From Microbacterium invictum (GTDB lineage Bacteria > Actinomycetota > Actinomycetes > Actinomycetales > Microbacteriaceae): a stretch of 64,000 bases of DNA. Below, piece by piece: positions 5,782 through 62,185 of the stretch. The first letter of the stretch is position 1; each line of letters opens with the position of its first letter. The position numbers were made by a program, and so were the translations under genes. The stretch is from positions 1,178,001-1,242,000 of the forward strand of contig NZ_JACIFH010000001.1 in NCBI RefSeq assembly GCF_014197265.1, in the 5' to 3' direction. The notes beneath the pieces are model-generated. The model was not told where the DNA came from, ran no database searches, and saw only the letters and a program-made list of their open reading frames with translations.

Positions 5782-5787
5782 AGCGTA
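5782..5787 (-). promoter_or_regulatory. -10 element of uvrB (leaderless)
   Basis: TACGCT on the minus strand, 6 nt before ATG 5775. Confidence 0.5.
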
Positions 5788-5862
5788 TGCGTGACGTCCG
5801 ACACACGGGCCGTCACGTGTCACCGACGCTGCCGCGGCTCCCGATCGTGCCGCGCTCCACGT

Positions 5863-5974
5863 TCAGGCGCTCCATGTTCAGATCAGGCGCTCCATGTTCA
5901 GAACGGTGCGGGACCGCCGTATGTTCAGAACGGCGCGGGACCGCCGTATGTTCAGAACGGTGCGGGACCGCCGT
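5863..5974. repeat. compound tandem repeat between uvrB and the DUF222-HNH gene
   Basis: Two 20-bp units starting TCAGGCGCTCCATG (5863-5882, 5883-5902) run into three 27-bp units starting ATGTTCAGAACGG (5894-5920, 5921-5947, 5948-5974; one base differs in the middle copy). The last unit contains the stop codon and final residues (GGPAPF) of the HNH gene, so the array looks like duplicated 3' end of that gene. There are no spacers, so it is not CRISPR. Confidence 0.9.
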
Positions 5975-7523
5975 CATCTTGCCGTGCCAGGCCGTCGCGG
6001 CGATGCTGCGCTTGGAAGAAGGAGTCGGGAAGGAACCCGACCGTGGGTGCCGGCCTGTCGCGGTAGCGGCGACCGCCAGGATCAATCCACTCGAACACGC
6101 CGTCGGCTCGAGGGATCACGATCCATTCGCTGTGATGTCGGAGGGGATGATGTCGCTTGCATTCGTCGGCCAGACATCGCACGTCGGTCGGCCCGCCACG
6201 GGAGTATTCGATGGTGTGGTCATGATCGCATTCATGGACGGGCCTGGTGCAGCCGAAGAACCGGCACTGCATGTCGCGCGCATCGAGGTAGCGCCGCTGC
6301 GCGGCCGTCGGACGATAGCGGTCGACCGCGAGCACCATTCCCGTGACGGGATGGGTGAGCACACGGTCCCACCCCGACGCCTTCGCGACGAGGCGCCGCG
6401 CGGTGGCCGGGTCGATGGGGACGCGACCGGCGAGTTCGGCGGGTGCGAGCCCAGGCTCGACGTCGTCGCCGACGAGCGTGAGGACCGGCACCGTGACCCG
6501 GACCGTCGTGGTGATGTTCAGCGCTGACTCGGGGTCGATGCCGATCGGGATGCCGGTGAGCAGCAGTTCTGCCGCGACATCGACGCGACGCTGATCGAGG
6601 GTACGCGGGTCCTTGACGCGCGGGACGGGGCGATCTGTCGCGCGCTCTCCGGCGCTGGCGGCCGGCGCCTCACCAATCGACGCCTCACCAATCGACGCCT
6701 GGCGCGGCGGGACCTCGTCGATCGGCGCTGCGCCGGTCGTATCTTCGTTAGGCATCGCGCCTTCGCGGACGAACTCGACAGTCCCGACGGACAGCGCGAC
6801 GAGGTCCGTCCTCACTCGTACGGTGAGAGCGACTTCGAGCATCGACTGCTTCTGGGCCAGCTCACGCACCACATTCCCGTCGAACTGAAACCGTTCCGTC
6901 TTGGCGAGCTGTGTCGCGCGGTCGAAGATGCCCTGGCCGATGACCGTCGGCACGTCGAGGGTCAGGCGTGACATCGCGTCACGCAGCGGGCGCAGCTGCA
7001 TCGTGCGTCGTGCGCGCGCATACGCGTGACGTTCGGCGAAGGGTACGGGGTTGAGGCGCTCGGCCATGATCTCGGCGACCGGTCGCGTGCGGGCGACACT
7101 CTCTTCCTCGGCGACGCGCAGCAGATGCTGTTCGAATGTCGCCCGCACCTCGGGGTCGCTGAGGCGCTCGCCGGCTTCGGTGATCACACGCACATGACCG
7201 CGCGAGATGCGCCCGTCGTGCCATGCCTCCACGATCGTGGGGTACTCGTTCAGGAGAGTCTGGGCGGTGAGCATGCGCCCCTGGATCGTCCTGTCCGAAA
7301 CGCGCAAGCGGGCGGCGAGACGCGCGCAGATATCGCGCAGCGGGATCTCCGCCGCCTGCCGATCTGACGGGAGGCGGCGGATCGCCTCGTCCATCTGATC
7401 GGCGAGCGCCGCCATCGACTTCTCGATCGACGCTTCGATCGTCGCCTTCTGGGTCTCGAGTGCGACGATCTCGTCCATGAGGGCACGGGTCGTGGCCGTG
7501 GTGACCGTGGCATCCACCCCCAT
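5952..7523 (-). CDS. DUF222 / HNH-endonuclease domain protein
   Basis: A 523-residue protein of the DUF222-HNH (13E12-like) group that is abundant and multi-copy in actinobacteria. DUF222 covers roughly residues 20-400; the HNH zinc-nuclease motif lies near 430-470: CRFFGC...CDHDHTIEYSRGGPT...CKRHH. The position usually held by Asn in the HNH centre appears to be Cys (VRCLADEC), so catalysis may be weakened. A linker near 270 holds duplicated SIGEA. A GTG at 7526 is immediately upstream; AAGGGGGAG precedes the start. It lies between uvrB and coaE, genes often adjacent in relatives, so it is probably an insertion. Cellular role unknown. Confidence 0.88.
   Translation of the reverse strand: MGVDATVTTATTRALMDEIVALETQKATIEASIEKSMAALADQMDEAIRRLPSDRQAAEIPLRDICARLAARLRVSDRTIQGRMLTAQTLLNEYPTIVEAWHDGRISRGHVRVITEAGERLSDPEVRATFEQHLLRVAEEESVARTRPVAEIMAERLNPVPFAERHAYARARRTMQLRPLRDAMSRLTLDVPTVIGQGIFDRATQLAKTERFQFDGNVVRELAQKQSMLEVALTVRVRTDLVALSVGTVEFVREGAMPNEDTTGAAPIDEVPPRQASIGEASIGEAPAASAGERATDRPVPRVKDPRTLDQRRVDVAAELLLTGIPIGIDPESALNITTTVRVTVPVLTLVGDDVEPGLAPAELAGRVPIDPATARRLVAKASGWDRVLTHPVTGMVLAVDRYRPTAAQRRYLDARDMQCRFFGCTRPVHECDHDHTIEYSRGGPTDVRCLADECKRHHPLRHHSEWIVIPRADGVFEWIDPGGRRYRDRPAPTVGFLPDSFFQAQHRRDGLARQDDGGPAPF
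6667..6696. repeat. 15-bp tandem duplication in the DUF222-HNH linker
   Basis: GCCTCACCAATCGAC is repeated twice head to tail and encodes the doubled SIGEA in the Ala-rich linker between DUF222 and HNH parts. In frame, so probably neutral. Confidence 0.9.
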
Positions 7524-8271: not shown

Positions 8272-8874
8272 TCAGCCGGCGGCGCCGGTCAGGCGCGCCC
8301 ACAGCCGATCGGTCTGTGCGAGGGTGTGCTCGATCGCGCCGGAGGTGTCGATGATGACATCGGCGATCGCGCGGCGTCGCTCGTCGGACACCTGTGCCGC
8401 GATGCGGGCGGTGGCCTCTTCCGCCGTCATGCCACGCAGCTCTACGAGCCGGCGGTGACGCAGGTCGGCCGGCGCGTCGGCGACCACGACGTGCTCCCAG
8501 GGATCGTCGACGCGTGCCTCCACGAGCAGGGGGACGTCGTAGACGACCACGGCATCCGGATCAGCGGAGAGGGCTTCGTCGAAGCGGCGCTGTGATGCGA
8601 CCCGGACGGCGGGATGCACGATTCCGTTCAACTGCGCCAGTGCCGCCTCGTCACCGAAGACGATCGCACCGAGCGCGGCGCGATCGAGCGCGCCGTCGCG
8701 GATCACTGAGGGTCCGAACACCTCGGCGATCTCGGTCAGTACCGGCGATCCGGGCGACTGCACGTCGCGCACGATCTGGTCTGCGTCGACGATGACCGCA
8801 CCATGCTCGGCGAGCCGGCGCGAGATCGTGGATTTACCGGACGCGATTCCACCGGTGAGCGCGACGAGGGGCAT
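8272..8874 (-). CDS. coaE: dephospho-CoA kinase
   Basis: Last step of coenzyme A synthesis: phosphorylation of the 3'-OH of dephospho-CoA with ATP. 200 residues. P-loop LTGGIASGKST (6-16), DADQIVRDV near 30, and VVYDVPLLVEA near 108 are diagnostic. In many actinobacteria coaE directly follows rpsA and precedes uvrB; here about 6 kb of accessory genes separates it from rpsA. GAAGG lies before ATG 8874. Confidence 0.95.
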   Translation of the reverse strand: MPLVALTGGIASGKSTISRRLAEHGAVIVDADQIVRDVQSPGSPVLTEIAEVFGPSVIRDGALDRAALGAIVFGDEAALAQLNGIVHPAVRVASQRRFDEALSADPDAVVVYDVPLLVEARVDDPWEHVVVADAPADLRHRRLVELRGMTAEEATARIAAQVSDERRRAIADVIIDTSGAIEHTLAQTDRLWARLTGAAG

Positions 8875-8909: not shown

Positions 8910-8931
8910 AACCTCAGGTGAACTTGAGGTT
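8910..8931. promoter_or_regulatory. SoxR/MerR-like operator dyad
   Basis: Perfect 7-bp arms AACCTCA and TGAGGTT around 8 nt. The core CCTCAGGTGAACTTGAGG (8912-8929) matches 16 of 18 positions of the SoxR box as I recall it (CCTCAAGTTAACTTGAGG). It lies between coaE and the first SipW-substrate gene, 110 nt before the latter. No MerR-family gene is in the window, so the regulator would act from elsewhere. Confidence 0.5.
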
Positions 8932-9041
8932 GGACTGCGGGGGCGTTGAGGCGCTGTCCATAGCTTCGAAGTGTCGCCGGAACACAGCGACCGAGCGGGG
9001 CGTGGGACCCCGACGATTCCCCCCGAACTTCGGAAGGTCAC

Positions 9042-9590
9042 ATGATGATCGAGAACACCACCACCCCGGTCGCCACTGCCGACGAGCCGCGCAAGAACAA
9101 GCGTCGCCCCATCATCGCGTTCGCGCTCGCCGCGCTCGCCGTGGGCGGCATCGGCGCAGCCGCCACCAGCGCCGCATGGACCGACAACGTCTTCTTCTCC
9201 GCGCAGGCCGAGGCGGCGACCTTCAACCTGCAGGGCTCGACCGACGGCGGGACCACGTGGAAGGAGAGCAAGACCGAGTCCAGCATCGAGCTGACCATCC
9301 CGGCCGGTAAGCTCGCCAACCTGCTCCCCGGCGAGGTCCGCACCATCGACCTGGCCGTACTGAACGACAGCTCGGTCGGCGCGGCAATCACCTCGTCGGT
9401 GAGGTTCACCGGTACGACGTTCGCCACCAACCCCACCGCGTCGGTGGTCGGCTTGGCCGGCAGCCTCGCAAGCGGCGCAAATGACGACTTCCAGCTCGTC
9501 GTGACCGCGCCGGAGAACTGGGATGTGGCCAACCAAGGTAAGACGGCGACCATCATCGTGACCGTCTCCGGCGAAGCCACCAACGACTGA
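9042..9590 (+). CDS. secreted protein with SipW-type signal peptide (TasA/camelysin-like)
   Basis: 182 residues. A basic start (RKNKRRP), a hydrophobic segment at about 22-42 and the junction TSAAWTDNVFF form the alternate signal peptide cleaved by SipW-like peptidases; TasA and camelysin of Bacillus are exported this way. The rest is Thr/Ser/Ala-rich and beta-predicted, without cysteine: a compact extracellular domain. GGAAGG lies 7 nt before the start (ATGATG; either ATG is possible). First gene of a run with sipW, an LPXTG protein and a second SipW-type substrate. It may be a fibre or matrix protein (inference). Confidence 0.78.
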   Translation: MMIENTTTPVATADEPRKNKRRPIIAFALAALAVGGIGAAATSAAWTDNVFFSAQAEAATFNLQGSTDGGTTWKESKTESSIELTIPAGKLANLLPGEVRTIDLAVLNDSSVGAAITSSVRFTGTTFATNPTASVVGLAGSLASGANDDFQLVVTAPENWDVANQGKTATIIVTVSGEATND

Positions 9591-9597
9591 TCCTCCC

Positions 9598-9628
9598 GGC
9601 GGCGGGACGCACACAGCGTCCTGCCGCC
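9598..9628 (+). terminator. hairpin between the first SipW substrate and sipW
   Basis: GGCGGCGGGACGC and GCGTCCTGCCGCC form a 13-bp stem with one mismatch around ACACA, 8 nt after the first stop. No T-run follows. It could terminate partially and keep sipW below its substrate, or protect the upstream mRNA. Confidence 0.5.
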
Positions 9629-9676
9629 GCTCGCACGACAAGCACGTACGCACATCCCAGACAAGGACACGCCATA

Positions 9677-10204
9677 ATGCAGCTGCTTCGCCGCCTCTCC
9701 CTCGGCCTGCTGTGGTTGCTCGCGGGCGTCGGTATCCTCTGCGGACTCGTCTGGGGCGCCACCGCCGCCGGCGTGATCAAGCCGCTCGTGGTCATCTCAG
9801 GCTCGATGGAGCCCGGCATCATGACCGGTGATCTGCTCATCGCGACGAAGGCCGACACCGCCGACCTGCGGGTCGGTGACGTCGTGAGCCTGCCGTCCGA
9901 GCTCACCGAATCGCTGGTCACCCACCGCATCGAGAGCATCGAACAGACCGGCACAGGTCAGTTCGCAATCTCGATGAAAGGCGACAACAACGAGTTCTCC
10001 GACGCGCTGGACTACGCCGTCGGGGCCTCGGTCTGGAAGCCCACCGCACAGCTCGCCGGCATGGGAACCGTCGTCACCCGCATCACCACTCCCGCGGTGG
10101 TCATGCCGCTCCTCATCGGCCTCGGCTCGCTGCTCGGGCTCTCGCTCCTCATTCCGCCGGCGCCCCAGCGCCGGGCACATTCCGCCGTCGCGGTGAACCC
10201 ATGA
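9677..10204 (+). CDS. SipW-like (ER-type) signal peptidase I
   Basis: 175 residues, a membrane serine peptidase that removes signal peptides at the outer face. N-terminal membrane segment (10-32), then VISGSMEPGI near 38-47 with the catalytic serine. The second conserved box is LVTHRI near 78, so the partner residue is His as in SipW and eukaryotic signal peptidases, not the Lys of ordinary bacterial LepB. A C-terminal membrane segment lies at about 142-165. Flanked on both sides by proteins with SipW-type signals, its obvious substrates. Its stop overlaps the next start by 4 nt (ATGA). Confidence 0.88.
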   Translation: MQLLRRLSLGLLWLLAGVGILCGLVWGATAAGVIKPLVVISGSMEPGIMTGDLLIATKADTADLRVGDVVSLPSELTESLVTHRIESIEQTGTGQFAISMKGDNNEFSDALDYAVGASVWKPTAQLAGMGTVVTRITTPAVVMPLLIGLGSLLGLSLLIPPAPQRRAHSAVAVNP

Positions 10205-10737
10205 CCATCTGCTTCCGTCGCGCACTCGGCACGCTCGTGCCCGCGATGATCATCGGTGCGGTGCTCGGCGCAGCATCCATCGCCCCTGTCGCCGCGACCG
10301 TCGCACAGCCGGTCGACGTCAACCTCCAGACCATGCTTCCCGGCGAAAGCCGGGCAGTCATCCAGGAGGTCACGGTGTCCCAGCGTGCGCGCGTGGCCGC
10401 GACGGAATGGACCACGGCCGGCGTCGACGCCGACTGGAACATCCGACTCTGCACCGACACCGACTGCACGCGGTGGCAAGACCTCGTCGGCACGACCTTG
10501 GCATCCGGAACCCACGAGATCCGCGCCACCATCACCATGCCCAACCAGCTCGACCAGGGTGCAACCGCGTCCGCCAGCGGGTCCATCACGTTCATCGAAG
10601 CGGATGCCACGCTTCCGTCGACCGGCGCAACACTGGCCTCAGGAGCACTCGGCGCCGGAATCGCCGCGATCGTCGGCGGCTTCGTCATCGTGCTCATCGC
10701 GCGGCGCCGCAGAGCTCAGGAAGAGGACGAATCATGA
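10201..10737 (+). CDS. LPXTG-type cell-wall-anchored protein of the SipW block
   Basis: 178 residues. Sec-type N-terminal signal (hydrophobic 10-32), an extracellular domain with two Cys close together (LCTDTDCT), and a C-terminal sorting signal: LPSTG near 138, a hydrophobic stretch, then RRRRAQ. Sortase would join the Thr to peptidoglycan; no sortase gene is in the window. ATGA overlaps at both ends imply translational coupling with sipW and the next gene. Plausibly the wall anchor or accessory subunit for the SipW-exported proteins (inference). Confidence 0.82.
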   Translation: MTICFRRALGTLVPAMIIGAVLGAASIAPVAATVAQPVDVNLQTMLPGESRAVIQEVTVSQRARVAATEWTTAGVDADWNIRLCTDTDCTRWQDLVGTTLASGTHEIRATITMPNQLDQGATASASGSITFIEADATLPSTGATLASGALGAGIAAIVGGFVIVLIARRRRAQEEDES

Positions 10738-11252
10738 CACGGGGCCGGTTTGTCGCCTTCGGTCTTGCTGTGCTCGCTGTCGTCGGCATCGCTGCGGGGA
10801 CCGGAGCGACTTCCTCAACTCAGGCCGCTTGGACCGACCGGGTCTATGTCACCGCGACCGCCACTTCCGGTACATGGGCCGCGGCTAAGGGCACCTGCAC
10901 CGCGTGGGGGCAGGGAGGCGTCAAGCTGTCCTCGTGCGAGGTCGCAGGGATCAGAGTGGAGGGTTGGAATGACGGCGCCAAGGTCATCCGCAACTACTAC
11001 ATCACCTTCGCCACACCCTCACAGGCTGAGTACGTAGATTTCACCGTTGACCTGACCGCAGCCACAGGCAGCACGCCGCCGATGTCATGGTCGAATGCCG
11101 GCGTCCGCACCGGAGCACAGTTCACCCCCGCCGGCGGCTGGACGTGCGCGAGTCTCCCGACGGTGAAGGGCCGCACCACGCAATGGAACACCGGGATCAT
11201 GTATTTCGTCGTTGTCAGCGACAAGACCGGTGAGTCGGTGGTATGCCCGTGA
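10734..11252 (+). CDS. second secreted protein with SipW-type signal peptide
   Basis: 172 residues. N-terminal hydrophobic segment followed by STQAAWTDRVYV, parallel to AAWTDNVFF of the first gene. The mature part has four cysteines (GTCTAW, SSCEV, WTCAS and VVCP at the end), enough for two disulfides, and several Trp/Tyr. It starts inside the stop of the LPXTG gene (ATGA). No named family recognised. It belongs to the same export unit as 9042-9590. Confidence 0.75.
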   Translation: MTRGRFVAFGLAVLAVVGIAAGTGATSSTQAAWTDRVYVTATATSGTWAAAKGTCTAWGQGGVKLSSCEVAGIRVEGWNDGAKVIRNYYITFATPSQAEYVDFTVDLTAATGSTPPMSWSNAGVRTGAQFTPAGGWTCASLPTVKGRTTQWNTGIMYFVVVSDKTGESVVCP

Positions 11253-11404
11253 CCGGCCGGAGTGGGGAGCACCTGGTTCACGCGGGGTCCCGTCCCGGCC
11301 GGGCGACCGCGGTGAGCCACGCATTCGACAGCGGCTTCTGGGATATCATCACGGGTGCCGGTGCCCCGCACGCGTCGTCTCACCGGCAGACGGAGGAACT
11401 GCCG

Positions 11405-12160
11405 GTGCCGGACTCACAAGTCGCCGTCGTCATCGAAGATGATCCCGACATCCGTTCCCTCATCACCGACGTCCTCGATCAGGCGGGGTTCCGGGTCTAC
11501 CCAGCGGGAACCGGGATCGACGGACTGGAACTCATCCGGCAGCATCAGCCCATCGTCACGACATTGGACATCAGCCTGCCCGGCATGGACGGCTTCGAGA
11601 CCGCCAAACGCATCCGCTCGATCAGCGCGACCTACATCGTGATGCTCACCGCGCGCGCCGATGAGATCGACACCCTTCAGGGCTTGCAAGCCGGTGCCGA
11701 CGACTACCTCACCAAGCCCTTCCGCCCGCGCGAACTGCGCGCACGCATCGAAGCGATGCTGCGGCGTCCGCGCACACTCGGCCCCGGCGAGGTCGCGCCT
11801 CCGGAATCGGTCGCCGACACGTCACCGTCACCCGACGAACCCGGGTGGCTGGAGCACAAGGGGCTGCGGCTGCATCCGGACATGCGCGTCGCCACCGCCG
11901 ATGACGCCCCGCTGGATCTCACACGCAGCGAGTTCGACGTCCTGGAGGAGCTGCTCAGCGCCGGACGACGCGTCATCGGCAAAGACGCACTGGCACTCAT
12001 GCTGCGCGGTGACAGCCACGCGGGCGGCTTCGTCAGCGAGCACGACGCGCGCGCGATCGAGGTGCACGTGGCGAACCTGCGACGCAAGCTCGGCGAGTCA
12101 GCCGCACAGCCACGCTGGATCGAGACCGTTCGCGGCGTCGGCTACCGCCTCACCCTCTGA
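11405..12160 (+). CDS. OmpR/PhoB-family response regulator
   Basis: 251 residues. Receiver domain 1-120 with acidic pair EDD near 12, phospho-acceptor Asp in TTLDISLPGMDGF near 57, Thr in VMLTARA and Lys in LTKPF; winged-helix DNA-binding domain from about 155 (LDLTRSEFDVLEELL...RAIEVHVANLRRKLGE...ETVRGVGYRL). The start GTG 11405 is chosen for GGAGGA 7 nt upstream and domain length; the frame is open back to 11243. It follows the SipW block on the same strand and runs 11 nt into the end of the convergent kinase operon, its likely partner. Confidence 0.93.
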   Translation: MPDSQVAVVIEDDPDIRSLITDVLDQAGFRVYPAGTGIDGLELIRQHQPIVTTLDISLPGMDGFETAKRIRSISATYIVMLTARADEIDTLQGLQAGADDYLTKPFRPRELRARIEAMLRRPRTLGPGEVAPPESVADTSPSPDEPGWLEHKGLRLHPDMRVATADDAPLDLTRSEFDVLEELLSAGRRVIGKDALALMLRGDSHAGGFVSEHDARAIEVHVANLRRKLGESAAQPRWIETVRGVGYRLTL

Positions 12161-13343
12161 TCGGCGCAGCCCGGTCGTCGCCAGCCTCAGCGACGATCAC
12201 CGAGGCGTCCGGACTCGTCGAGGAGCGCCGGGCGGCATCCTGAGCCGCATCGATCAGCGCGCCCGGGTCGTAGCCGACGTCATCGCTGAACGCGATCCCG
12301 ACCCCCACCGCCGGGATCACGGCACTTCCTCGCTCGGCGAAGTCGTCGAGCAGCCGACGCTGAATGCGGCCGGCGACGCGGCGCGCGTCACCTGGCGAGG
12401 CGGGCTGCCACGCGATCAGCACGGACGCCTCGTCACCGTCGCCCACCAGCGCGAATACGGGTGCATATCGCCGGATGCCGGTATGCCACTGCGTCGCGAT
12501 CGACTCTTCCTCGACGGTGCCGAACGCCACCCCGATCTGCGCCAGATCGTCCATGCGTACAGAGGCCACGGCACACGATGCCTCCTCTCCGCGTGCACGC
12601 GACAGGACGCTGCCCACAGCCGTCTCGAATGACGGCGCGCTGAGAACGCCCGCAGGGGTGACTTGAAGCGTCGCGTGCTCCGCATCTTGGCGCACGGTGA
12701 CCCGGCCGGTGCGGAGCATCGTCGCCGTCGTCAGCGCGACGATCGTGAGCACGATCGAGACGATCCCCGTGATGCTGGAGTTGAACCATGTCGTGAACAG
12801 CGATCCTTCGGGCCCCTCCACCCACAGGACGATCGCTCGCACGAAGTAATAGGCGGCCACGAAGGCGAACACGATCGTGAATCCCAGCGAACTCCAGATC
12901 GCACCCATGCCGGCGCGCCGTGACTCCACGGATGCGAGCCCGGCGAAGACCGCGACGCCGAAGAAGAGAAGGACCGCGCCCGCCCAGTCACCGCCGTCCG
13001 GCCCCGCGGCCAGCGTCACAACCAGCTGCACGATCGCCACCGCGCCGACCACCGCACCGGCGGGGCGCACCCGGTGGGCGTTGAAGCTCCGGCATCCCAA
13101 CCAGAAGCAGCCCAGCGTCGACACCAACGCTGCGTTGCCGATCGCGATCGCGACCCACGGGTCGGCGGTGCCCTGCCAAAGCAGATAGGCGACGACGGTG
13201 AGCATGCCGCTGAGGAAGCCGAGGGCCCACACGCGACCTGGCCCGACTTCGCGACGCAGCATGGTCTCGAGAAGGTAAAGCGTGCCGGCGGTCATGGTGA
13301 CGATGGCCACGAGCATGTTCACGGTGAAGGCGTCGATCGTCAT
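12150..13343 (-). CDS. membrane protein with degenerate GGDEF domain
   Basis: 397 residues. About seven hydrophobic segments in 1-205, then a cytoplasmic domain laid out like a diguanylate cyclase: the signature loop reads VGDGDEASVLIAW where RYGGDEFAVLL is expected, and the distal VGVGIAFSDDV...LIDAAQDAARRSS matches the SIGIA...ADxALY end. The changed signature suggests no c-di-GMP synthesis; a sensory or scaffold role is likelier. Its start overlaps the stop of the histidine kinase (ATGA), so the two are translationally coupled. Confidence 0.75.
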   Translation of the reverse strand: MTIDAFTVNMLVAIVTMTAGTLYLLETMLRREVGPGRVWALGFLSGMLTVVAYLLWQGTADPWVAIAIGNAALVSTLGCFWLGCRSFNAHRVRPAGAVVGAVAIVQLVVTLAAGPDGGDWAGAVLLFFGVAVFAGLASVESRRAGMGAIWSSLGFTIVFAFVAAYYFVRAIVLWVEGPEGSLFTTWFNSSITGIVSIVLTIVALTTATMLRTGRVTVRQDAEHATLQVTPAGVLSAPSFETAVGSVLSRARGEEASCAVASVRMDDLAQIGVAFGTVEEESIATQWHTGIRRYAPVFALVGDGDEASVLIAWQPASPGDARRVAGRIQRRLLDDFAERGSAVIPAVGVGIAFSDDVGYDPGALIDAAQDAARRSSTSPDASVIVAEAGDDRAAPIRG

Positions 13344-14977
13344 CAGGGGGCCTCTTCCTCGGCCGAAGCCGGTAGCCGGACGACGAAGGCGGCCCCTTCG
13401 CCGATCGCGGTGCGCACGGTGATCTCGCCGCCGTGCGCTCGGACGATCTCACGGCTGATCGCCAGCCCCAGCCCGCTGCCGTGCGTGGTCGATCGGCGGA
13501 CGAGTTCGGAGCGGAAGAACCGCTCGAACAGTCGTGGCAGTTCACTCTCTGAAATGCCCGGCCCGTCATCGCTCACCACGATCCAGACGTGAGTGCCGTC
13601 GTCGGTGAGTCCGACTTCCACGCGACCGGCGATCCGGTTGTACTTGATCGCGTTCGACAGCAGATTGTCGACCACCTGTCGCAGCCGGTGCGGATCGGCG
13701 CGCGTGTGTACGGTGTCGACGGCCTTGGTGTCGATCGTGACCCGACGCTCTGCCGCCCGCGGCCCTGCCGCCTCAACGGCTGCCATCACGATGGCCGATA
13801 CGTCGGTCGACTCGAGGTGCAATGACAACGCGACGCCCATGCGAGAAGCTGCCGATGCAGTGAGCAGATCCGATACGAGGTCGAGCAACCGGCCGGCATT
13901 GCGCTCGACCACCTCCAGACTGCGCCGCGTGGCCGGCGAGAGGCTCGGGTCGTCGAGGGCGAGCTCCACGTATCCGGTAATCGAGGTGAGCGGGGTGCGC
14001 AGCTCGTGCGACACCGACGCGATGAGATCCTCACGCGAGCGCAAGGCGAGCTCCTCGGCGGTCACGTCAAGCGTGACGATGAGCATCCCGGCATCCGACA
14101 GATCCTTGTCGATGAGCCGTCGTGCCGTGGATCGCAGGGCGCGGCGCTCTTCGGCACCCGGATCGCCGTGCCAGACCAGCGCATTTTCGAACTCCTCCCC
14201 GCGACGCGCACGCGCGAGGGGAAGGTCTTCGGGGTCGAGCAGGGTGATGCCGTCTGCCGCGTAGGCCCGAACGTCGCCCTCGACAGCCCGCTGCAGCCGC
14301 GCATGGGCCTCATTGGTGACCACCAGCGAGCCGTCGGGCGTCAACCGGATGACTCCGAAGTCCACGGCCTGCAGCACTTCGGTGACGAGGTCTTCCTGGC
14401 GACGCGCACGATCGACCGAGCGCTGCAACAGCCGCGACTGCTTGTCGAGGAGGACGCGCTGGGCGAACGCACGCCGTGACCCGAATGCGGCGCTGATCGC
14501 GAGCCCGGCGATCATGACGGGGAGCAGGATGGTGGAAGGGGTCATGGACTGGGTCGGCTCGGTGGCGACGAGCGTCCAGTAGGTGACCGAGATCACGACC
14601 ACCCCGAACAGCGCGCCCCATACCCCGAACGCCGCCGCGATCCACATCACGGGAAACGCCCACAGCAGGCCGAGACCGCCCGCCGGTGCAGCGCCCCGCA
14701 TCATGGCGATCGCGGCGATGTCGATGAGCGGCAGAACCAGCATCAGCGTGGGCGGCGTTCGGGTCCACGGCACGACGAACGCGGCACCGGTCGCAATGAA
14801 GACGAGCGTGACGCCCACGGTCATGAGGGTCACGTCCTGCACCACGCCGAACAGCGACACGACGACGGCCGCGAATACCACGACCGATCCCAGCAGCACC
14901 TGGTTCAACAGGATCGAACGGTCACGACTGGCGCCGAGGACCCGCTTGGGCACGGCCACCCGTCCGGTCATCGTCAC
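13343..14977 (-). CDS. membrane sensor histidine kinase
   Basis: 544 residues. Five to six membrane segments in about 20-170, a coiled linker, a PAS-like region (FGVIRLTPDGSLVVTNEAH) at about 205-310, HisKA with phospho-acceptor His in SVSHELRTPL near 325, and HATPase_c with N box NLLSNAIKYN, DDGPGI, FERFF and GSGLGLAI. It has no large extracellular domain, so it may sense a membrane or intracellular signal. GTG 14977 and ATG 14971 are both possible starts. Upstream partner of the degenerate-GGDEF gene and convergent with the response regulator. Confidence 0.92.
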   Translation of the reverse strand: MTMTGRVAVPKRVLGASRDRSILLNQVLLGSVVVFAAVVVSLFGVVQDVTLMTVGVTLVFIATGAAFVVPWTRTPPTLMLVLPLIDIAAIAMMRGAAPAGGLGLLWAFPVMWIAAAFGVWGALFGVVVISVTYWTLVATEPTQSMTPSTILLPVMIAGLAISAAFGSRRAFAQRVLLDKQSRLLQRSVDRARRQEDLVTEVLQAVDFGVIRLTPDGSLVVTNEAHARLQRAVEGDVRAYAADGITLLDPEDLPLARARRGEEFENALVWHGDPGAEERRALRSTARRLIDKDLSDAGMLIVTLDVTAEELALRSREDLIASVSHELRTPLTSITGYVELALDDPSLSPATRRSLEVVERNAGRLLDLVSDLLTASAASRMGVALSLHLESTDVSAIVMAAVEAAGPRAAERRVTIDTKAVDTVHTRADPHRLRQVVDNLLSNAIKYNRIAGRVEVGLTDDGTHVWIVVSDDGPGISESELPRLFERFFRSELVRRSTTHGSGLGLAISREIVRAHGGEITVRTAIGEGAAFVVRLPASAEEEAP

Positions 14978-15096: not shown

Positions 15097-16545
15097 TCAG
15101 CGACCCGACAGCTTCTCGCGCAGTGCGGCGAGAGCCTCGTCGTCGGCCAGCGTGCCGGCCGAAGCCGAGTCGCTCGAGAACGTCGAGCCACCGGTCTCCG
15201 CCGGAGCAGCTGCCTCGGCCTCGGCGGCCTTGGCGACAGCGGCCTTGTGCGCCTCCCAGCGACCCTGGGCGGCGGCGTACTCCTGCTCCCACTTCTCGCG
15301 CTGGGCGTCGAAGCCTTCGAGCCAGGCGTTGGTCTCCGGGTCGAAGCCCTCGGGGTACTTGTACTCCCCGTTCTCGTCGTACTCGGTGACCATGCCGTAG
15401 AGGGCCGGGTCGAACTCGGTGCCGAACGGGTCGACCGACTCGTTGGCCTGCTTCAGCGACAGCGAGATGCGCCGACGCTCGAGGTCGATGTCGATGATCT
15501 TGACGAAGACCTCTTCGCCGACCGACACGACCTGCTCGGCGAGTTCGACGTGCTTGCCCGACAGCTCGGAGATGTGCACGAGGCCCTCGATGCCGTCCGC
15601 GACGCGCACGAACGCACCGAACGGAACGAGCTTGGTGACCTTGCCCGGAGCGACCTGACCGATCGCGTGGGTGCGGGCGAAGACCTGCCACGGGTCTTCC
15701 TGGGTCGCCTTGAGCGACAGCGAGACGCGCTCGCGGTCCAGGTCGACCTCGAGGATCTCGACGGTGACCTCCTGGCCGACCTCGACGACCTCGCTGGCGT
15801 GCTCGATGTGCTTCCACGACAGCTCGGAGACGTGCACGAGGCCGTCCACGCCGCCCAGGTCGACGAACGCACCGAAGTTGACGATCGACGAGACCGTGCC
15901 CTTGCGGACCTGGCCCTTGTGCAGGTTGTTGAGGAAGTTCGAGCGCGACTCGGACTGCGTCTGCTCGAGCAGCGCACGGCGCGAGAGCACGACGTTGTTG
16001 CGGTTCTTGTCCAGCTCGAGGATCTTGGCCTCGATCTCCTGACCCAGGTACGGGGTCAGGTCGCGGACGCGGCGCAGCTCGATGAGCGATGCCGGCAGGA
16101 AGCCGCGCAGGCCGATGTCGACGATGAGACCGCCCTTGACGACCTCGATCACGGAACCGGTGACAACACCGTCGTTCTCCTTGATCTTCTCGACGTCACC
16201 CCAGGCACGCTCGTACTGCGCGCGCTTCTTGGAGAGGATGAGGCGGCCTTCCTTGTCCTCCTTCTGGAGAACGAGCGCTTCGACCTCGTCGCCGACCTTG
16301 ACGACCTCGTTGGGGTCGACGTCGTGCTTGATGGAGAGCTCACGCGAGGGGATGACACCCTCGGTCTTGTATCCGACGTCGAGGAGGACCTCGTCGCGGT
16401 CGATCTTCACCACGGTGCCTTCGATGAGGTCGCCGTCGTTGAAGAACTTCAGAGTCTTTTCGACCGCGGCCAGGAAGTCCTCAGCAGATCCGATGTCGTT
16501 GATGGCGACCTGCTTGGTGGCCGGGGCGGTCGTTGCGGTAGTCAT
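15097..16545 (-). CDS. rpsA: 30S ribosomal protein S1
   Basis: 482 residues with four S1 RNA-binding repeats: about 35-105 (GDLIEGTVVKIDRDEVLLDVGYKTEG), 125-190 (VVTGSVIEVVKGGLIVDIGLRGFLP), 208-280 (GTVSSIVNFGAFVDLGGVDGLVH) and 295-365 (GKVTKLVPFGAFVRVADGIEGLVH). The acidic/Ala-rich tail is the usual actinobacterial one. It binds mRNA on the small subunit. The start MTTATTAPATKQ is chosen over a longer open frame because homologues begin there. About 200 nt upstream is non-coding and should hold the promoter and leader. Confidence 0.97.
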   Translation of the reverse strand: MTTATTAPATKQVAINDIGSAEDFLAAVEKTLKFFNDGDLIEGTVVKIDRDEVLLDVGYKTEGVIPSRELSIKHDVDPNEVVKVGDEVEALVLQKEDKEGRLILSKKRAQYERAWGDVEKIKENDGVVTGSVIEVVKGGLIVDIGLRGFLPASLIELRRVRDLTPYLGQEIEAKILELDKNRNNVVLSRRALLEQTQSESRSNFLNNLHKGQVRKGTVSSIVNFGAFVDLGGVDGLVHVSELSWKHIEHASEVVEVGQEVTVEILEVDLDRERVSLSLKATQEDPWQVFARTHAIGQVAPGKVTKLVPFGAFVRVADGIEGLVHISELSGKHVELAEQVVSVGEEVFVKIIDIDLERRRISLSLKQANESVDPFGTEFDPALYGMVTEYDENGEYKYPEGFDPETNAWLEGFDAQREKWEQEYAAAQGRWEAHKAAVAKAAEAEAAAPAETGGSTFSSDSASAGTLADDEALAALREKLSGR

Positions 16546-16746
16546 ATAGTGGGTTGTCCTTGTTGGGTTTGGGTGTCGGGCCATGGACTTGGTCTCCGGC
16601 ATCCACTCACCCGAAGGCGAGCAAACACCACCGAGCCCGAGGCGGATGGTCATGGATTGCGTGTCACGAGAGCATGGCGATAGAGCCACACGAGTGACAT
16701 CTCAGGCTATCAGAATCGGCGCCTGCCGTGTGGGGCCGGTGTGCGC

Positions 16747-61658: not shown

Positions 61659-61753
61659 GATGTGTCGGGGTGACCGGGGCTCTGATCCCCATCCGCCTCG
61701 ACCTGGCACCGGGGAAGTGTGTCAGGGCGTGCGGCTGGGAGTCACAGCCACGG

Positions 61754-62185
61754 TCAGAACAGTCCCGGAATCACCTCCTGCTCCATGTCCGAGTAGATGT
61801 CTTCGTTGCCTTCGGCGTACGCGTTCCACGCCTCGGCGTTCCAGATCTCGGCGTGCGCGCCGACGCCGGTGACGACCAGTTCGCGGCCGAGGTCGGCGTA
61901 GGTGCGCAGGTGCGGCGGGATGGTGATACGGCTCTGGCTGTCGGGCTTCTCGTCGCTGGCTCCCGAAAGGAACATGCGCTGGAAGTCACGCGCCTGCTTG
62001 TTCGTCAGCGGGGCCTCGCGGATCCGCTCGTAGACCCGCTCGAATTCCTTCGTGCTGAAGACGTAGAGGCACCGCTCCTGACCGCGGGTGACGACCAGGC
62101 CGTCGCCGAGGTCGGTGCGGAACTTCGCCGGGAGGATGACCCGCCCTTTGTCGTCGAGCTTGGGGGTGTACGTGCCCAGCAACAT
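61754..62185 (-). CDS. mraZ: MraZ transcriptional regulator
   Basis: 143 residues, two AbrB-like swapped-hairpin domains: [14 protein letters not shown] near 10 and [13 protein letters not shown] near 84. Regulates the dcw operon by binding direct repeats at its own promoter; three such repeats are visible at 62227-62252. First gene of the cluster. AAAGGGGGTGG precedes the start. Confidence 0.97.

Follow-up and report, generated by a model that had tools for sequence, protein, structure and literature searches.

In Clostridium perfringens, the sipW-bsaABCRSD operon brings together a SipW signal peptidase, its substrates and a two-component system. There, BsaR is reported to bind the sipW promoter, bsaRS to be transcribed by read-through, and expression to be bimodal (PMC7395162). 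In Bacillus, tapA-sipW-tasA of B. subtilis and sipW-tasA/calY/capP of B. cereus (PMC13082335) place SipW-processed small beta-rich surface proteins beside the peptidase. Here we describe a related locus of Microbacterium invictum within a window of 64,000 nucleotides (the whole stretch analysed: contig NZ_JACIFH010000001.1, positions 1,178,001 to 1,242,000; all coordinates count from its first base). A cassette encoding a SipW-type peptidase, two exported substrates (SUB1 and SUB2) and an LPSTG protein runs into the gene of an OmpR-type response regulator, which forms a trio with a histidine kinase and a GGDEF-like membrane protein. It is probable, in our judgement, that these genes constitute one regulatory circuit with the export cassette as its output. 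The gene order, the clade-specific linkage, and a promoter box with its placement were established by sequence comparison.

The locus shares with sipW-bsaABCRSD the SipW peptidase, the secreted substrates, and a dedicated regulator that is a candidate read-through product of its own target promoter. The kinase of C. perfringens lies in the same operon, whereas that of Microbacterium is convergent and has a degenerate-GGDEF partner. The C. perfringens substrates are described as lacking an LPXTG motif and not needing the nearby srtB, whereas an LPSTG protein is coupled into the Microbacterium cassette. A further difference is that the Microbacterium box is a tandem YTGAGG array, and the two systems are likened by design, not by regulator orthology. 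The statement of the sequence-only reading of this window that the system matches none known by name was too strong, given this precedent. The Bacillus systems are controlled by SinR/SlrR and not by a linked two-component system, and SUB1 has neither a TasA/camelysin sequence match nor a convincing fold match. Other actinobacterial SipW cassettes also encode AAWT-type substrates, often with LPXTG neighbours (NCBI label 'SipW-dependent-type signal peptide-containing protein'). In the open literature, a full-text search found nothing on SipW in Microbacterium, and no title on SipW in Actinobacteria, or on the YTGAGG box and related terms, evidently dealt with such a system. The promoter box is a new element of this analysis, and the design of a self-regulated SipW operon was already known from Clostridium.

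Organization of the locus

The box, the seven genes, the internal element and the flanking genes are as follows.

8924-8962, plus strand: promoter box TTGAGG-N5-CTGCGG-N5-TTGAGG-N9-TA, with an 11-bp period
9042-9590, plus strand: SUB1, exported protein of 182 aa with a TSAAWTD alternate signal and a predicted Ig-like beta-sandwich
9677-10204, plus strand: SipW-type (TIGR02228) signal peptidase, with Ser motif SGSMEP and His motif THR
10201-10737, plus strand: LPSTG wall-anchored protein with an ordinary signal and two conserved Cys, an optional member of the cassette
10734-11252, plus strand: SUB2, 172 aa, with a TQAAWTD signal, conserved Cys and Trp, and no assigned fold
11249-12160, plus strand: OmpR-type response regulator, last gene of the operon (candidate starts 11243, 11249 or near 11405)
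11336-11350, plus strand: -10-like TATC[AC]T[CG] element, TTCTGGGATATCATC, a likely internal promoter of the regulator gene
12150-13343, minus strand: membrane protein with a degenerate GGDEF domain, GG[DE]EF motif absent
13343-14977, minus strand: membrane histidine kinase, SVSHELRTPL motif intact
8272-8874, minus strand: flanking coaE
15097-16689, minus strand: flanking rpsA

Positions 9042-11252 are a conserved four-gene cassette (SUB1, SipW-type peptidase, LPSTG protein, SUB2) running into the regulator gene. ATGA overlaps join the SipW and LPSTG genes and the LPSTG and SUB2 genes; a GTGA overlap is available at the junction of SUB2 with the regulator gene, which has several candidate start codons. 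The seven genes, in the order and at the coordinates first read from the sequence, were confirmed by translation and family scans. Since the same order of genes is seen again in other Microbacterium and in Microterricola, Leucobacter and Cellulomonas, the arrangement is not due to chance. Genes of the relatives were called by codon usage, and some were shortened, e.g. the regulator in loci L103-L105. The host genome, a single contig of 3.58 Mb, has the SipW gene of the window as its sole TIGR02228 match above the cut-off, a second match of 30 bits falling below it; its two sortase genes are both far from the locus.

A periodic promoter box before the cassette and the regulator gene

At loci where cassette and trio are linked, YTGAGG hexamers were found at 11-bp steps before SUB1, ending 9 bases ahead of a -10-like TA. 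In the window a further CTCAGG stands one period upstream of the box, at 8913. Scored for three YTGAGG hexamers, 16 of the 17 linked SUB1 upstream regions beat all 300 shuffles and L138 reached P 0.027, figures that are circular taken alone, as the motif was derived from the same sequences. A scan of periods peaks at 11 only, with a mean of 16.2 of 18 vs at most 11.9 at other periods. Eleven of 13 unlinked cassettes have no box, and the two exceptions, both from Cellulosimicrobium, are weak sites.

A matrix was derived from 16 cassette promoters and applied to 69 regulator loci with a total length of 1.19 Mb. It matched in 18 of the 53 loci outside the training set (17 distinct sites), each time 170-920 bp before a same-strand regulator gene. 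Two other matches were obtained in the 1.19 Mb, one of them the cassette box of L138 itself, and none in 1.29 Mb of shuffled loci. Among 55 trio-free loci (0.72 Mb), one match was unexpected (L059), besides that of L145, which is a linked cassette. A fixed pattern searched in 99 genomes of the genus gave 25 sites in 24 genomes, and a reversed-pattern control gave two. Twenty-three of these sites lie at the trio locus, nine with the cassette and 14 without, and the host genome has a single site. In many cassette-free relatives, the box stands before the regulator gene itself. Of the regulated surface-fibre system proposed from the sequence, regulated export is thus upheld by a box common to the cassette and the regulator gene, whereas the kinship to TasA-like fibres is not, as discussed below.

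The signalling trio and its linkage to the cassette

The regulator and the kinase match ordinary OmpR and HisKA models (receiver plus Trans_reg_C; HisKA plus HATPase), and the phospho-acceptor motifs SVSHELRTPL and TLDISLP are present in the window, as in OmpR-type two-component systems. The match of the third protein to the GGDEF model is very weak (11.5 bits, cut-off 23.8). Neither the window protein nor any of its 89 aligned homologues has the GG[DE]EF signature, so that the degeneracy noticed in the sequence-only reading proves correct and family-wide, and the protein is, judged from these alignments, a standing, catalytically degenerate partner and not a recent pseudogene. It was found in 48 of 150 genomes of the family and in 61 of 99 genomes of the genus including the host (60 of 98 without it). 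The loci around its better matches usually have the kinase adjacent and the regulator convergent, mostly without a SipW gene. The trio is an independent module.

In the 98 other genomes of the genus, nine SipW orthologues of at least 56% identity were found, and all nine are located 1.7-3.4 kb from the GGDEF-like gene. Their order is SUB1-SipW-(LPXTG)-SUB2-regulator, with the regulator between the cassette and the GGDEF-like gene. Two weaker SipW relatives (46% and 43%) are not adjacent to it. Among the other SipW loci of the family, unlike the Microbacterium locus, no trio gene over 60 bits was detected at the 38 sampled from the matches listed; two more SipW genes that adjoin a trio, at L045 and L011, came to light from the GGDEF side and lie outside this sample. 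In the reverse direction, the 60 other genomes of the genus that carry the GGDEF-like gene include only nine in which a close SipW orthologue stands alongside. Frequent separation of signalling and export genes in relatives, which had been named beforehand as speaking against a common system, therefore occurs for the trio but not for the SipW clade. The insertion between rpsA and coaE described from the sequence holds, in comparison with many relatives, for the four-gene cassette but not for the trio, which is present there in many cassette-free genomes.

The order with the regulator was also seen outside the genus, in G129 and in Microterricola, at another chromosomal place, and the sister genome G063 is missing just the cassette. 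In M. murale, the cassette stands in tandem with the genes of the kinase, GGDEF-like protein and regulator at a different site. No such regulator adjoins the cassettes of Cellulosimicrobium and Leucobacter. A same-sized regulator/kinase pair precedes the cassette in five of nine Cellulomonas loci; in the one of these that was scanned (L143:5168-7143), the pair before SUB1-SipW-LPXTG-SUB2 consists of a kinase and a regulator of the LuxR/NarL type, a family other than that of the OmpR trio. Placing the cassette on the kinase tree takes six changes (at least five), which indicates that it was lost or gained repeatedly. A cassette flanked by two regulator copies was observed at L098:6424-7167.

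The trio might instead be a general regulator of surface or exopolysaccharide functions, with the cassette merely in a permissive slot and another OmpR-type protein binding the box. Cassette-free trios are common, and in several Microbacteriaceae genera the regulator and trio are interleaved with GH6, GT2, GH18/CBM5-12 and Hpt-like genes. The GH6, GT2 and Hpt names were first assigned by eye, and a family scan confirmed them for L015 and L018, the Hpt match of L015 being slightly below its cut-off (22.7 vs 24.6); the Hpt-like protein of L163 had no Pfam match. Both box sites away from the trio locus also sit in polysaccharide clusters, with Bac_transf and Polysacc_synt genes alongside. However, 23 of the 25 sites are at the trio locus, the box precedes the regulator gene itself in the absence of the cassette, and the same four cassette groups are seen in both the SipW tree and the kinase tree. 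We regard this explanation as unlikely.

Exported proteins and the peptidase

The peptidase passes TIGR02228 (71 bits, cut-off 51.85) and fails the Bacillus SipW equivalog NF046067 (47.1 bits, cut-off 190). The LPSTG protein passes TIGR01167 (19.9 vs 15.9) and PF00746 (23.5 vs 20), and has the features of a sortase substrate: the LPXTG motif, a hydrophobic stretch, an Arg-rich tail and a sortase encoded in the genome. The profiles of SUB1 and SUB2 align at the AAWTD signal only (hhalign probability 96%, 38 columns), and SUB1 alone scores 14 bits against TIGR04088, under the cut-off of 19.

Past residue 60, the predicted structure of SUB1 has a pLDDT of 94-98 in most blocks, and its mature part takes in the model the form of a generic Ig-like sandwich, of the kind seen in CARDB, ASH and PapD domains. 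A Pfam scan of 39 SUB1 relatives (E 0.01) found CARDB in ten and HYDIN-like Ig in three. No TasA/camelysin model was among the matches of these 39 relatives at that threshold, which divergent members could escape; the family is presumably PF12389. With the SUB1 model, Foldseek ranks the TasA fibre 24th (E 0.09). The suggested kinship of the substrates to TasA or camelysin is thus unsupported.

The likeliest product is a wall-anchored surface structure, and we infer polymerisation of SUB1 solely from its occurrence together with SipW. Adhesins or decoys that form no polymer, whether soluble or bound to the wall, with the LPSTG protein an independent surface protein, would be in keeping with the likeness of SUB1 to CARDB/ASH-type Ig domains and not to a fibre family, and with the absence of the LPSTG gene from the cassettes of six of the nine linked genus orthologues. 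Yet SipW is kept together with two AAWTD substrates across families, joined in Microterricola, Leucobacter and Cellulomonas by an LPXTG-like protein, and the characterised SipW substrates of Bacillus and Clostridium are filament components. Non-polymeric products appear somewhat doubtful on this balance.

A putative self-regulated circuit

In the circuit that we propose, the kinase, partnered by the degenerate-GGDEF membrane protein, would control the OmpR-type regulator, presumably by phosphotransfer. The regulator would bind directly to the tandem YTGAGG box, which lies 81 nt ahead of SUB1, and thereby control the operon SUB1-SipW-LPSTG-SUB2-regulator, probably by activation rather than repression. 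With the box first and the regulator last, with or without the cassette, the regulator would control its own transcription. As the last gene of the operon its level would rise upon activation, a positive feedback atop a basal internal promoter. The element at 11336-11350 looks like this basal promoter and is likely to serve as such: TATC[AC]T[CG] occurs in 29 of 29 Microbacterium regulator leaders and in about 1% of random 350-nt windows. SipW would cleave the AAWTD signals of SUB1 and SUB2, and a housekeeping sortase would fix the LPSTG protein to the wall, where it would probably anchor a surface structure with SUB1 as the main subunit. Gene order, overlaps and box are consistent with a putative self-regulated operon of the C. 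perfringens type. Because the arrangement is that of sipW-bsaABCRSD, for which bimodal expression is reported, bimodal expression of the cassette is predicted by analogy in Microbacterium.

Shared-box autoregulation fits either sign, and the regulator could repress the cassette and itself until a surface signal relieves it, with the internal promoter maintaining a basal level of regulator. In the aligned sites, however, 9 bp separate the end of the box from the -10 TA, which puts it at the place expected for a -35 element, the typical position of OmpR/PhoB-type activators. The C. perfringens precedent is also activation. Repression is accordingly an improbable alternative.

Several observations weigh against the proposed circuit. 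No matrix match was found in 35 of the 53 regulator loci outside the training set, and in 38 of 61 trio genomes the fixed pattern, at its stringency, detects no box at the trio locus. The operon of an unrelated SipW, with signals of the AAMWN type, has a strong divergent site beside it (L059:9310, score 26.0). Two Cellulosimicrobium loci, L135 and L136, have box-like sites (15 of 18; matrix 12.6 and below 12) without an adjoining regulator; a 56% relative of the regulator is encoded elsewhere in Cellulosimicrobium, vs best values of 35-43% in searches of Leucobacter and of two Cellulomonas genomes. Finally, the fold of SUB1 is generic, and fibre formation by SUB1 is not indicated by anything in the analysis.

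A possible output slot and a structured RNA leader

The regulator and the YTGAGG box may frame an exchangeable output slot, whose filling would join a self-amplifying, possibly bistable surface programme; we advance this tentatively. The slot was found to be filled by the SUB1-SipW-(LPXTG)-SUB2 cassette, by an LPXTG-like secreted protein (L013, L014), by an RNA leader (12 Microbacterium loci) or by nothing coding (L017, L021). At L011:6597-7103 (genome G049), a SipW relative of 30% identity with its catalytic Ser motif replaced (STSAMAP) lies between coaE and the regulator gene behind a weak box (15.1), and this is a decaying cassette. In another genus, an unrelated SipW cassette (L045:2101-6578, 33% identity) with TASWTD/AYWSDA substrates precedes a same-family regulator next to the trio; its sister locus L046 is without this cassette, and the matrix scan found no box at L045.

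The 12 leader loci (L107, L108, L109, L111-L114, L116, L118, L122, L126 and L128) are cassette-free and have a hairpin-rich leader of 200-380 nt between the box and the regulator gene. A hairpin of 51 nt (L107:11519-11569) possesses an invariant GNGGGG loop and 89% paired cells, with nine of 17 pairs changed on both sides. Its covariation is 0.42 vs 0.21 in shuffles, none of 500 reaching 0.42, and 0.07-0.19 when slid. The leader had no Rfam match in the 11 of these 12 loci that were scanned.

Other features of the window

An mraW RNA (RF01746, 64.9 bits) was detected at 61663-61760 on the minus strand. Short tandem repeats are present at 5787-6085, upstream of uvrB, where open reading frames read repeated VQNGAGPPY.

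Implications

The proposed circuit offers a model, open to test, of how SipW-type export would be regulated in Actinobacteria and names a likely DNA target for a widespread, uncharacterised kinase/degenerate-GGDEF/regulator trio. The box predicts which genomes would express the surface cassette under this switch, and the analysis points to a structured RNA in the place of the cassette. If the slot reading is true, the architecture of the surface would evolve through exchange of the filling, the switch staying the same. Together with the C. perfringens operon, the locus suggests that a self-feeding SipW surface operon has arisen in two phyla.

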